Source: an uncultured Bacteroidales bacterium
Lineage (GTDB): Bacteria; Bacteroidota; Bacteroidia; Bacteroidales; UBA932
Length of the DNA stretch: 7,733 bases
Reading direction: 5' to 3'
Assembly (NCBI GenBank): GCA_905234775.1
Contig: CAJOJC010000066.1
Location: forward strand, 1-7,733
Within the stretch, counting starts at the first letter, position 1, and each line of letters starts with the position of its first letter. The translations under genes and the position numbers were made by a program. The notes under the pieces are model-generated. The model made no database searches. It had not been told where the DNA came from and saw only the letters and a program-made list of their open reading frames with translations. Positions 3,650 to 7,615 of this stretch are shown here, one piece after another.

Positions 3650-5391
3650 GAAAAACCTACAACTTGCTTCTAGTCATAGCATTCATTTCCGCCTTATCGT
3701 GTAGCCCGAAACAGGGGACTCTTCACGTCATTACTACCAACGATGTCCACGGCGCCTGGTTCGACAGTACCTATTTCGGAGGCAGACAGGTCCCCAGCCT
3801 TATGGCAGTCAATTACTATGTAGACAGTATCCGTAAAGCAGACGGCCCCGGAAATGTCCTTTTGCTGGATGCAGGAGATTGTCTTCAGGGAGACAATGCG
3901 ACCTATTATTTCAACTACATCGATACTCTTACCGAACACCTTTTCGTCCGGATCGCCGACTATATGAAGTATGATGCGATTGTAGTAGGAAATCACGACG
4001 TCGAGACCGGACACTCGGTCTATGACCGCGTTACAAGGGAGCTGGATGCCCGCGGTATCCCGTTCCTCGCCGGAAACGCCATCAAGCCCGACGGGACATC
4101 TTACTGGCCCGAGTACAAGGTGTTCAAAAAAGCCGGGCTGAAAGTTCTGGTGCTTGGCTACACAAACGCGAATATGGCCGAATGGCTCGACCCTTCAATA
4201 TGGTCCGGAATGGAATTCGTCTCGCTGGTGCCTTTTGTCCAGCAGAGGGTTGACCTCATTAAAGCGAAGGTGAAGCCGGATGTAACTATAGTCGCTCTCC
4301 ACAGCGCAGTAGGGGAAGGAGACGGTCAGGCCCTTGAGGCCCAGGCCCTGGATCTTTTCAATACCCTTAGCGGAGTGGACCTTGTAATCTCGTCCCACGA
4401 CCACCGCCCGTGGATGGAATCATCCGATTCGATAGCCCTTGTCAATACCGGCTCTAAAGCCTACAATTTCAGCCACACCGTTATTTCAATAGACAAGCAG
4501 GGCAACAAGACTATCAAACCTTCAATCGTAAGAGTAGACAAGACTAAGGCGGATCCGAAGATGAGGGAGGTTTTCGCCCACGACTTCGCCGAAGTAAAGC
4601 AGTTCACCTCGATGGAAGTAGGCACCATCACCACGCCTATGGTTACCCGCGAGGCTTTTGCCGGTCGCTGCTTCTACACAGATTTCGTCCACTACGTGTG
4701 CAGAACTTTTTCGGGCGCGGATATTTCGTTCGCAGCCCCTCTGACCTTCAACAAGACGGTCCCTGCGGGTCCTGTAATCTTCAACGATTTGTTTACAATC
4801 TACCCCTTCGAGAATGCTCTGTATGTATTGCGCCTTACCGGCCGCGAGATCAAGGGCTATCTTGAGTGTTCTTACAACAAGTGGATTCAAACCCTGAAGC
4901 CGGGCGGAAACGTCCTCAATATAGTACCGCGCTCTGATCCCAGAAACGACCAGAAAGGATGGTCGTTCGTTGAGAGAAGCTACAACTTCGACAGCGCTTC
5001 GGGAATCAACTACACGGTAGATGTCACCAAACCCTACGGCGCGCGAGTGAAGATAAGCTCGATGGCCGACGGCAGCGCGTTCGATCCTGAGCGCGTGTAT
5101 ACCGTCGCGATGACCTCGTACCGCGCTGCCGGCGGCGGCGACCTTCTCTTCAAAGGCGCCGGCCTTACCCGCGAACAGCTTTCCGGCCGCGTAGAGGCCC
5201 GCTATCCCGAAATCCGCGACCTCATCTTCAAGTATTTCCAGATTCACGGCGAGGCCGATCCGGAAACGATAGCCAACCCGCCGGCAGTGACGGACGGCGA
5301 CCGCATCCTTCTCGGCGACTGGAAGTTCGTCCCGGAAGATGAAGCAAAAAAGGCCATATCCAGGGATATGACCTTGATGTTCGGGAAGTAG
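3646..5391 (+). CDS. 5'-nucleotidase / metallophosphatase lipoprotein (UshA/CpdB-type two-domain enzyme)
   Basis: A 581-residue exported enzyme predicted to hydrolyse nucleotides or related phosphoesters outside the cytoplasm. The signal peptide ends in a lipobox-like ALSC with lipidated Cys19. The N-terminal calcineurin-like metallophosphatase domain holds the dimetal ligands in order: TTNDVHG (30-36; Asp33, His35), DAGDCLQG (75-82; Asp78), GNHDVE (115-120; Asn116, His117), LHS (218-220; His219) and SSHDHRPW (249-256; His251, His253). The C-terminal 5'-nucleotidase substrate-binding domain runs from about 325 to 560, with TVPAGPVIFNDLFTIYPFEN (371-390) and YRAAGGGDLLFKG (492-504), which forms part of the nucleotide-binding site. 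The NGGGIR motif of UshA is replaced by APLTFNK (364-370), a variant I associate with Bacteroidota members. Substrate preference (nucleoside monophosphate, cyclic phosphodiester or sugar phosphate) is therefore uncertain. Its ATG overlaps the barrel gene's stop (ATGA). The residues after Cys19 (SPKQ) are not acidic, so periplasmic-side anchoring is the default guess. Confidence 0.92.
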   Translation: MRKTYNLLLVIAFISALSCSPKQGTLHVITTNDVHGAWFDSTYFGGRQVPSLMAVNYYVDSIRKADGPGNVLLLDAGDCLQGDNATYYFNYIDTLTEHLFVRIADYMKYDAIVVGNHDVETGHSVYDRVTRELDARGIPFLAGNAIKPDGTSYWPEYKVFKKAGLKVLVLGYTNANMAEWLDPSIWSGMEFVSLVPFVQQRVDLIKAKVKPDVTIVALHSAVGEGDGQALEAQALDLFNTLSGVDLVISSHDHRPWMESSDSIALVNTGSKAYNFSHTVISIDKQGNKTIKPSIVRVDKTKADPKMREVFAHDFAEVKQFTSMEVGTITTPMVTREAFAGRCFYTDFVHYVCRTFSGADISFAAPLTFNKTVPAGPVIFNDLFTIYPFENALYVLRLTGREIKGYLECSYNKWIQTLKPGGNVLNIVPRSDPRNDQKGWSFVERSYNFDSASGINYTVDVTKPYGARVKISSMADGSAFDPERVYTVAMTSYRAAGGGDLLFKGAGLTREQLSGRVEARYPEIRDLIFKYFQIHGEADPETIANPPAVTDGDRILLGDWKFVPEDEAKKAISRDMTLMFGK

Positions 5392-5407
5392 CAGTCAATA
5401 GAAAAGA

Positions 5408-6136
5408 CTACCAATCTGTGTTATTAGTTGTGTTGGTCGCGGTAAGAACCATGCCTATTTCATTGCCATCCTTATCAAGGCCAGTGATAGGAATAGTTAC
5501 ATGGAAGGTGAAAGGAGATTCCAGCAGATAGGAGTACTGCTTCTTTATTTGAATGGTTTGCGCCCCAATAGGGGGCTCTCCCAGACCAATTATTGGTAGA
5601 ACTCCTTCAGAATAGTATTCATTACAATCGTACGCAACAACGTTGGGAGCTTTATGAGAAGCCTGAGCATCCAGTAGATGCTGATCAGGAATGACATCCA
5701 TTTCCGGATATTTGATTCGTCCCAGAGAATAGCATTCAAAAAGGTCAGACAAATCTTCACCAGCTTCTCGTCCGTCTATATCGGTGTCTGAATAGATTTG
5801 GATAGGACCGGATACTCCGGCGAAGATATAAAGAACACTATTGTCTCCGTCATACGAATAGTGATGAATATTGTAATGCATGAATTCATCTTTTAAATGA
5901 TCAATCATATCTTCCTTTATAGAATGCTTTTTCAGAAAATCCGAACTACTCCCTTTTGGCGAAAGCATTAATGTGACACCATTATAAGCGGCAAACACCG
6001 TGAGCTCAGGTTTGAAAGCATCTATTGATAAAATTCGATATGTCGTTTCCATTACGGTAGTTTCATCCCCCTCATTATTACGGCAGGAGAAGAAACAAAT
6101 AATCGCCAGAAGAACGCAGAATGATAATCTTTTCAT
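5408..6136 (-). CDS. Unrecognised lipoprotein, partner of the C10 peptidase (candidate inhibitor or accessory protein)
   Basis: A 242-residue protein that I cannot assign to a family. It has a clear lipoprotein signal peptide: MKRLSF, a hydrophobic core, then FFSC with Cys18. The following RNNEGDE is acidic, resembling the lipoprotein export signal that sends Bacteroidota lipoproteins to the cell surface. The mature protein has a predicted alpha/beta part (about 30-115, with a helical stretch SDFLKKHSIKEDMIDHLKDE at 65-84), an acidic segment DTDIDGREAGEDLSDLFE (117-134), and a beta-rich C-terminal part (about 190-236, including FTFHVTIPITGLDKDGNEIG). No catalytic motif is visible. It lies 5 bases downstream of the C10 peptidase gene and shares 21 bases with that gene's start, so it is co-transcribed and probably functionally tied to it. 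It is about twice the size of known staphostatin/Spi inhibitors, so inhibition is a hypothesis only. Base composition is A+T-rich like the protease and unlike the upstream neighbours. Confidence 0.85.
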   Translation of the reverse strand: MKRLSFCVLLAIICFFSCRNNEGDETTVMETTYRILSIDAFKPELTVFAAYNGVTLMLSPKGSSSDFLKKHSIKEDMIDHLKDEFMHYNIHHYSYDGDNSVLYIFAGVSGPIQIYSDTDIDGREAGEDLSDLFECYSLGRIKYPEMDVIPDQHLLDAQASHKAPNVVAYDCNEYYSEGVLPIIGLGEPPIGAQTIQIKKQYSYLLESPFTFHVTIPITGLDKDGNEIGMVLTATNTTNNTDW

Positions 6137-6138
6137 GG
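6118..6138. repeat. 21-bp direct repeat, copy 1 (start of the partner lipoprotein gene)
   Basis: Identical base for base to 7563-7583. On the minus strand it reads CC, then the ATG and the codons for KRLSF plus one further base. It covers the first six codons of the lipoprotein signal peptide, including synonymous positions (AGA, TTA, TCA). Identity ends just upstream of the CC and right after the sixth codon. Confidence 0.95.
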
Positions 6139-6141
6139 TGA

Positions 6142-7581
6142 TTATTCTTTAATAGTAAAATTATATATCATTTTTCGATTATAAATGTAGGGCGACCAAG
6201 ATCCATATTGCCATATTCCGGATAGCGTACACCATGTATTATTATATGAGGTTGGTCCCTGTCCCCAATTCATGCCGTAGTAATAAATATGAGGAGTACT
6301 ATATGTGATTTCATCATCTGGGGGCAGTAATATTGGATTATTAGTGGGGTCATCATCTAGGTCTACCCACCTCCATGTTATCCTGGTCCTGGTCCTGGTC
6401 CGTTTGTATCTGTCAACAAGAAATGCGTGGCCTTTTTTCTCAACTCCCCGAACATCTCTCTTTCCAGCGCATACTATCGGGTAACCACTTTGCAAACTCG
6501 ATACGATAACACTGGAATTATACTCGTCCAGGCAAGTACTGTTCCAACCATAGGGAGAAAAGACATCGTCGACTAAATCTTCCGTGTCAGCTTCGGATCC
6601 GTCCCAGCCATAATCCATATGAAGTCTCTTTCCAACATCGCCTACAAGTAATGCCGCACAAGTGTCAGTGGTGCTTAATAAAGACATGGTCGCCCATGTG
6701 CTGGTGGAATGATCCCAGAATAACTGAATAACCGAGTTGTCATATACATGTCCTATGCATATCCCGGCACGTGGACTTGTGGTCGGGACCCCGTCCTTAG
6801 AGTGAAGGAAGTAGAGCATTTGAGCGCCGGCAATAGCTACACATCCGGCAGGACATTTTACAATAGAATCATTGTCATTAATATCATCAGGACAGAAGAA
6901 ATTGTAAATATTGTGTTGATGCCACCTTGTCCAAGTTAAATGAGGTATAGAATCATATACTTCCTCCTCACTTTCTGCAACAACCATTTCCCAAAAACCA
7001 TTTGGAATTCTTTCTCGGTCATCTTGATGACTTCCAAATGAATTATTGCGATGCTTGTTAATAAGTGTATTATCAGAATTGACTATTTTCCAGAAGTCTA
7101 ACGAGTTTTGAATATTTTTCTCCTCTTCTTGTGTCCCAGGAGGCAAAAGACCGTTAAGGGATAACCAGATATCACTAGATAACAAAGAAATGTGCCCTCC
7201 AAAACCAGTTGGATCATTCATCTCGTCGAAAAGACCTTCATGGTTGTACGCCAATGGTATAGGACTTCTTTTATCTGTAGCAATAATCTCAAAGCCTTTG
7301 GAATACTGAAGAACGTACAAACATGGAATACTGTCCCAATAAATAGGTTTGATGCTTGATAAGACCACTTCCTCTCCTCTTGATTTACCTTCAAGAATCC
7401 TGAAGTTGACGTAGTTTATAAGATCGCTTTCGGTAACCAGATAATCATTCTGAAGACCTACTTGGAAAGATGTCTTGGTAAGTGTGGACCTCTTATTTAA
7501 GCTTGATATCGGTTGTTTAGTTGAACAAGCATATAACAACAATATAATTAGGAGAGGCAAGAAGAATGATAATCTTTTCAT
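6142..7581 (-). CDS. C10 family cysteine peptidase (streptopain/Bfp-like) with propeptide, lipoprotein
   Basis: A 479-residue secreted protease precursor. The signal peptide ends LLLYAC with lipidated Cys19. Residues about 45-140 look like the Spi/C10 propeptide domain, with the typical GFEIIATDKRSPIPLAY (96-112). The catalytic domain starts near 212. LTWTRWHQHNIYNFFCP (215-231) holds the conserved Gln222 before the catalytic region, PAGCVAIAGAQMLYF (244-258) holds nucleophile Cys247, and GHAFLVDRY (384-392) holds catalytic His385. DVGKRLHMDYG (315-325) and SLQSGYPIVCAGK (362-374) are also family-typical. The NWG (438-440) matches the Asn-Trp loop, but the next residue is Gln441 where streptopain has a second Trp (NWGW). 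An unusual insert between the His and NWG regions contains RTRTRTR (394-400), encoded by a hexamer repeat, and an acidic Pro-rich stretch. The family cleaves host and bacterial proteins after removal of the propeptide. It is the first gene of a two-gene unit, with its own upstream promoter-like box. Confidence 0.92.
   Translation of the reverse strand: MKRLSFFLPLLIILLLYACSTKQPISSLNKRSTLTKTSFQVGLQNDYLVTESDLINYVNFRILEGKSRGEEVVLSSIKPIYWDSIPCLYVLQYSKGFEIIATDKRSPIPLAYNHEGLFDEMNDPTGFGGHISLLSSDIWLSLNGLLPPGTQEEEKNIQNSLDFWKIVNSDNTLINKHRNNSFGSHQDDRERIPNGFWEMVVAESEEEVYDSIPHLTWTRWHQHNIYNFFCPDDINDNDSIVKCPAGCVAIAGAQMLYFLHSKDGVPTTSPRAGICIGHVYDNSVIQLFWDHSTSTWATMSLLSTTDTCAALLVGDVGKRLHMDYGWDGSEADTEDLVDDVFSPYGWNSTCLDEYNSSVIVSSLQSGYPIVCAGKRDVRGVEKKGHAFLVDRYKRTRTRTRITWRWVDLDDDPTNNPILLPPDDEITYSTPHIYYYGMNWGQGPTSYNNTWCTLSGIWQYGSWSPYIYNRKMIYNFTIKE
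6381..6401. repeat. Tandem hexamer repeat (TCCTGG, 3.5 copies) inside the C10 peptidase
   Basis: Three perfect TCCTGG units plus a half unit. On the coding strand these are alternating AGG and ACC codons giving the RTRTRTR run at residues 394-400 (the outermost Arg uses CGG). Gain or loss of units stays in frame and would lengthen or shorten a strongly basic stretch just after the catalytic His segment. Confidence 0.9.
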
Positions 7582-7607: not shown

Positions 7608-7615
7608 CAAAATTA
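7608..7615 (-). promoter_or_regulatory. Probable -7 promoter box of the C10 peptidase/lipoprotein unit
   Basis: On the minus strand this reads TAATTTTG, a perfect TAnnTTTG match. It sits 26 bases upstream of the peptidase ATG, giving a predicted leader of about 20 bases. No good -33 TTTG is found 19-21 bases upstream, which would fit a promoter that depends on an activator. The inverted repeat at 7645-7659 would then be centred at about -48. Confidence 0.5.

Follow-up and report, generated by a model that had tools for sequence, protein, structure and literature searches.

At the right end of the window, the stretch of 7,733 nucleotides of Bacteroidales DNA analysed here, a gene for a C10 (streptopain-type) cysteine protease is followed on the same minus strand by the gene for a small lipoprotein, which begins 5 bases 3′ of it. 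The open reading frames (Table 1) bear out this arrangement as described in the initial annotation. The explanation that we propose, and to which we would give an even chance, is that both genes constitute a co-transferred and probably co-transcribed pair, in which an envelope-anchored C10 zymogen would be accompanied by a dedicated partner guarding the producing cell. The pairing of C10 proteases with genes for proposed inhibitors has already been published for Bacteroides; here the layout is the same and the partner family is a different one.

Table 1. Positions of the genes, protein features and upstream elements in the window
Feature	Position	Strand	Basis or remark
Gene of the partner lipoprotein (242 aa; rare family, 9 clusters)	5408..6136	(-)	ORF, homologue search
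Partner conserved motif IPITGLD, residues 215-221	5474..5494	(-)	Alignment and model
Partner conserved motif GEDLSDLF, residues 126-133	5738..5761	(-)	Alignment; varied in P0008 and P0009
Partner signal peptide, ending at lipobox Cys18 (ICFFSC)	6083..6136	(-)	Alignment
Repeat, copy over the partner 5′ end	6090-6138		49 nt
C10 (streptopain-type) cysteine protease gene: lipoprotein signal, I69-like propeptide and catalytic domain	6142..7581	(-)	479 aa; ORF, Pfam, alignment, model
Asn438-Trp439 of the C10 active site	6265..6270	(-)	Alignment
Catalytic His385 of the C10 protease	6427..6429	(-)	Alignment
Catalytic Cys247 of the C10 protease	6841..6843	(-)	Alignment
C10 propeptide region, about residues 20-202, inferred boundary	6976..7524	(-)	Sub-cut-off PF13734 match and zymogen structures 1dki, 3bb7
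Lipoprotein signal peptide of the C10 protease, up to lipobox Cys19 (LLLYAC)	7525..7581	(-)	Alignment
Repeat, copy at the 5′ end of the C10 gene	7535..7583	(-)	49 nt
Possible -7 element TAATTTTG	7608..7615	(-)	Pattern match
Palindrome GCGTTAA-T-TTAACGC upstream of the C10 gene	7645-7659		Seen by eye

The C10 protease and the family of its partner

By its profile match, its catalytic residues and its modelled zymogen fold, the 479-residue protein is a member of peptidase family C10. It matches PF01640 (Peptidase_C10) in Pfam with an E value of 4.4e-19 (69.9 bits, against a cut-off of 26), and C247, H385, N438 and W439 align with other C10 enzymes, the catalytic Cys and His being intact. The best structural matches of the model, which is of middling quality (pLDDT 75.5, pTM 0.52), are 1dki, the SpeB zymogen (E 3.2e-9), and then 3bb7, prointerpain A. 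The PF13734 (I69) profile aligns with residues 85-129 at E 1.4e-4, with 22.7 bits and thus below its cut-off of 25, and NCBIfam has no family for the protein. Lipobox-type signal peptides are found in both the protease and its partner, and the lipobox Cys19 of the protease is invariant in the 22 aligned sequences (window included). Searches for the window protease in the plasmid, phage and genome-contig collections gave no match, and scans of viral contigs using single C10 proteins as queries found nothing. Among the C10 relatives in the matches listed, two carry an organism name (P0034, Bacteroidales bacterium, and P0103, Bacteroidaceae bacterium).

The 242-residue partner falls below every Pfam cut-off, the best match being PMM (E 0.092, 13 bits against 22.4). 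It has no match in NCBIfam, and a PDB search with its profile returned nothing up to E 10, so that the absence of a recognised family, as originally claimed, holds in the three databases. Counting that of the window, the family comprises only nine clusters in a search of 5.8 billion proteins, and it is absent from the genome-contig and viral-contig collections that were searched. Six homologues were recovered by single-sequence search, with identities to the window partner of 37-41% (P0002-P0006) and 29% (P0007); a profile search added the shorter P0008 and P0009, which are 38% and 32% identical over the aligned part. All nine clusters agree at 16 alignment columns, including those of YPxM and IPxTG. 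The structure model of the partner is of the mixed alpha/beta type; in its C-terminal beta hairpin, IPITGLD forms the first strand and turn. It had been anticipated that a confident structural match to an unrelated function would count against a protease partner; a structure search with the model gave no confident match to any fold. Because the genes are adjacent and their products probably reside on the same membrane, it is conceivable that the protease cleaves the lipoprotein, as a substrate or a decoy, but we regard this as most improbable, as no positive evidence points to it and the conserved motifs fall in confidently predicted parts of the partner rather than in a flexible tail.

Two of the partner homologues, P0003 and P0006, are identical over their first 39 and last 75 aligned residues and only 56-70% identical in 20-column windows across columns 41-120. 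This pattern would correspond either to a pair of alleles that are mosaic or vary in the middle, or to an assembly chimera.

Composition and recurrence of the gene pair

The description of both genes as A+T-rich is right relative to their surroundings, since the pair has a GC content of 40% versus 47-57% in neighbouring genes. In addition, GC3 is 0.37 in the C10 and partner genes versus 0.61-0.75 in five other genes of the window, and each of the two genes is closer in codon usage to the other than to four neighbours. This shared and unusual codon usage indicates that they probably arrived together, and joint lateral arrival is its simplest reading. The other genes of the window look ordinary, encoding Ffh/SRP54, a tyrosine phosphatase, a 5′-nucleotidase family protein and an unassigned 357-aa protein, next to a short ORF that is cut off at the window edge and has a weak APH match. 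Nevertheless, low GC3 in both genes is what any joint import would produce, including one in which the protease and the lipoprotein are mere neighbouring cargo of a single acquired segment and the lipoprotein has an unrelated function. We judge such an explanation to be quite unlikely in view of the recurrence of the pair and of the other C10 loci described below.

A 49-nt repeat spans the 5′ ends of both genes; its two copies share 76% identity and are identical in their last part. Upstream of the C10 gene, a possible element matches the -7 promoter pattern of Bacteroidota; the five matches of this pattern in the window, versus 3.7 expected, are within chance. The palindrome located further upstream is a possible operator.

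To compare loci, partner and C10 clusters were matched by the exact size and the source of the longest contig of each cluster. The partner cluster P0005 and the C10 cluster P0012 (66% identical to the window C10) are both represented by a 3876 bp contig from source lgn, and the partner cluster P0003 and the C10 cluster P0013 (64%) by a 23112 bp contig from source ena; the window's own partner and C10 clusters both have 7979 bp, as must be. Two exact size matches over eight partner clusters were thus seen versus about 0.07 expected, and no contig size occurs twice among the best 120 of the 235 C10 matches. These coincidences of size and source indicate that the pairing recurs: for two of the eight partner homologue clusters, a close C10 relative very probably lies on the same contig. 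When the three pairs are compared, the window partner shares 40-41% identity with the other partners and the window C10 65-66% with the other C10s, and between the P0005/P0012 and P0003/P0013 pairs the partners are 78% and the C10s 79% identical.

For the remaining clusters, the contigs of P0004, P0006 and P0008 (at most 2021 bp) are too short for both complete genes, and P0002, P0007 and P0009 (7916, 19512 and 11411 bp) have no C10 counterpart among the best 120 of the 235 C10 matches. Conversely, 117 of the 119 C10 relatives among the matches listed, the window's own excluded, have no partner cluster on a contig of equal size, and these include close relatives such as P0011 (67%), P0014 (62%) and P0015 (59%). 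As only the longest contig is reported per cluster, the absence of a match is weak evidence, yet it counts against the pairing; both figures, a C10 neighbour for two of the eight partner clusters and a size-matched partner for so few C10 relatives, are what the cargo explanation would lead one to expect, and the repeated association of the same partner family with related C10 genes on size-matched contigs speaks against it. The proposal that partner homologues should be found beside C10 genes could be answered for only two of the eight clusters, both on the side of the pairing.

Lipoprotein genes downstream of other C10 genes

A survey of plasmids, phage records and IMG/VR contigs yielded 19 non-duplicate C10 loci including the window, 18 of which were judged. 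A partner was defined as a lipoprotein of 100-300 aa encoded not more than 62 bases downstream, limits that were set after the pairs had been seen. Near-duplicates (L014, L017, L018 and L027) were dropped, and L011 was excluded because its record stops 239 bases past the gene. L005 was judged from its annotation, the lipobox-like strings of L023 and L006 were judged false by annotated start and position, and L009 and L013, with C10s 82% identical, were counted separately. Four further Serratia records whose match was equal (H22, H23, H25 and H26) lie outside the survey, which took in two of the four C10 places counted in NC_022111.

Eight of the nine short lipoprotein C10 genes with intact Cys and His, counting the window, are followed within 62 bases by the gene for a lipoprotein of 126-242 aa (Table 2). 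The count becomes 7/8 without the window, and equally 7/8 when L009 and L013 are merged; a distance limit of 30 bases leaves seven pairs and one of 100 bases the same eight. The exception is L026, a viral contig, in which an intact lipoprotein C10 has no lipoprotein gene next downstream. None of the other nine C10 genes is followed by such a lipoprotein, namely L016, a lipoprotein C10 without the catalytic His found on B. fragilis plasmids, and the eight long ones (L005, L006, L010, L020, L021, L022, L023 and L028). Among these, L028 has a 472-aa lipoprotein 45 bases downstream, larger than the rule allows, and L020, whose next gene lies 292 bases downstream, was scored as having no partner. 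In the same loci only 2 of 113 non-C10 genes have a downstream lipoprotein of this kind, one of the two being the partner gene of L019.

Table 2. Short intact lipoprotein C10 genes followed by a small lipoprotein gene
Locus	Gap (bases)	Partner (aa)
Window pair	5	242
L002, viral contig	10	144
L009 (MT838022.1)	6	174
L013, B. uniformis plasmid	6	177
L012, P. distasonis	21	224
L015, S. copri	62	149
L019, P. distasonis	10	126
L025, viral contig	-4 (genes overlap by 4 bases)	218

A close small lipoprotein after eight of nine such C10 genes, versus two of 113 non-C10 genes, is difficult to accommodate if the two genes were unrelated cargo. The initial view of protease and partner as a module is thereby strengthened, as the pairing does not look accidental either within the partner family, where it recurs twice, or among short intact lipoprotein C10s in general. 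Position, the lipoprotein signals of both products, joint acquisition and recurrence together argue for a functional pair. On the other side, the six homologue clusters without a demonstrated C10 neighbour and the partnerless L026 weigh against a dedicated one.

The partners are mutually unrelated in sequence save those of L009 and L013. The best BLAST match of the window partner to the others is to that of L015 (28.6% over 70 columns, E 7e-4, residues 8-77), which starts inside the signal peptide of the window partner. A relationship to the other C10 partners was discarded, since hhalign aligns the signal peptide region only, and a PDB search with three of those partners gave nothing better than E 0.06. 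The length of the window partner had been taken as a sign of a new class, an argument that loses force given the partners of 218 aa (L025) and 224 aa (L012) and the variation of partner sequences from locus to locus. L012, L015 and L025 have a changed Asn or Trp next to the active site.

Possible roles of the partner in the light of known systems

The closest precedents are the Bfp/Bfi and Btp/Bti systems of B. fragilis and B. thetaiotaomicron, for which the available portions of two reports describe C10 genes co-transcribed with Bfi/Bti genes and propose inhibition or guarding by the latter, a role that rests on sequence and predicted structure (PMC2873492, PMC3462683). Like the window pair, these systems comprise a predicted-lipoprotein C10 zymogen adjoining the gene for a small exported protein and, as far as these portions describe them, BtiA and BtiB are also predicted lipoproteins. 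If the operational mark of a Bfi/Bti-like pair is taken to be a C10 gene with the gene of a small exported protein no more than about 35 bp away, the window pair has it, with 5 bp and a lipobox. Unlike Bfi, described in the same portions as staphostatin-like and of 116-138 aa, the window partner has 242 aa and conserved motifs of its own. According to the same text, inhibitor-like neighbours are reported for bfp1 and bfp4 only out of the four bfp genes, btpC is apparently transcribed alone, BtpZ retains BtiZ in spite of lacking the catalytic Cys, and soluble or active Bacteroides C10 enzyme was not obtained in E. coli (PMC2873492, PMC3462683). The Bacteroides C10 proteases are also presented there as SpeB relatives, some of which, including two bfp genes, are on mobile elements (PMC2873492).

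The window pair likewise resembles streptopain SpeB and its inhibitor Spi (I69), in which a C10 protease with a propeptide has a small protein gene adjacent; unlike Spi, the window partner carries a lipoprotein signal and has no PF13734 match. That profile gave no match at E up to 1 in the seven members scanned of the nine in the partner family, and an origin of the partner as a propeptide copy was rejected, given that only its signal peptide aligns to C10 propeptides. By sequence, then, the partner family is new and not Spi-like. Staphopain and staphostatin, the latter described as lipocalin-like, also combine a protease with a small neighbour gene (available portions of PMC2873492), although staphopain belongs to a different peptidase family (C47 versus C10); no lipocalin-like match emerged among the structural matches of the partner model, none of which is confident. 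Interpain A and other long C10s share the catalytic domain; the long C10 genes of the survey (602-1656 aa), unlike the window C10, have no lipobox judged real and no close downstream lipoprotein of 100-300 aa (0/8). C10/SpeB homologues are mentioned in the parts available of PMC4936053 and PMC7872030, which describe no partner, and in the literature covered, with few subscription journals, no title was recognised as describing the window partner family or a general C10 partner slot.

In the model that we favour, both genes would have been transferred together and would be transcribed together, and their products would be anchored in the same membrane, where the partner would bind and restrain the protease and so guard the producing cell. 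This would parallel the Bfi/Bti proposal for Bacteroides, with a partner family of its own. Guarding or inhibition appears to be the likeliest role by analogy, because it matches that proposal and tolerates rapid replacement of the partner. Mutually unrelated partners would suit fast-changing cognate proteins, and the single case of L016, which lacks both the catalytic His and a partner, fits the same role. Three points count against it: the I69-like propeptide of the protease would make a second inhibitor unneeded for latency, BtpZ, in the portions available of the reports cited above, keeps its BtiZ without a catalytic Cys, and the inhibitor role of Bfi/Bti is itself a prediction there. The main rival is an accessory subunit that helps the C10 protease to fold, mature or reach the surface, or whose task is to bind substrate or glycan alongside the protease on the outer membrane. 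We consider this rather unlikely, since variation of the partner from locus to locus next to a recognisable C10 core would be odd for a folding helper, and no confident fold match links the partner to a binding domain.

More tentatively, and with somewhat less assurance than we attach to guarding in the window pair itself, the survey may be extended to a variable partner slot, in which short lipoprotein C10s of Bacteroidota would be followed by lipoproteins from unrelated families in each lineage, each of them a cognate guard; inhibitors of C10 proteases would then have arisen repeatedly, the window partner representing one new family. Control of Bacteroides C10 proteases by their neighbours is inferred in the available portions of the publications (PMC2873492, PMC3462683). 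With the positional rule of a short lipoprotein C10 followed by a small lipoprotein within about 60 bases, partners could be found without sequence similarity, and the rule offers several independent C10/partner pairs.

Several of the surveyed loci have further features. L016 (3192-4514) and its near-duplicates L017 and L018, from B. fragilis and Bacteroides sp. plasmids, have Ala in the His column; in L016 an Arg occupies the Cys position and a Cys follows at the next residue, for which reason only the loss of His is claimed. This C10 homologue is flanked by a recombinase gene and a convergent porin gene and has no partner. In the viral contigs L026 (3914-5290) and L027, the lipoprotein C10 is extended at its C-terminus and has no lipoprotein gene beside it. 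In L002 (9031-11687, IMG/VR) the C10 gene and its 144-aa lipoprotein come after an ORF resembling, by eye, a DNA cytosine methyltransferase. L009, although labelled Bacteriophage sp., has a gene order in common with the B. uniformis plasmid pBUN1 (conjugation gene, C10, lipoprotein and a 467-aa ATP-binding protein) and is for this reason probably plasmid DNA. The P. distasonis plasmid of L019 has a further lipoprotein gene (4934-5776, 280 aa) after that of the 126-aa partner; a DUF3244 protein is annotated upstream in this locus, and a weak DUF3244-like ORF lies upstream of the C10 gene of L015 (S. copri).
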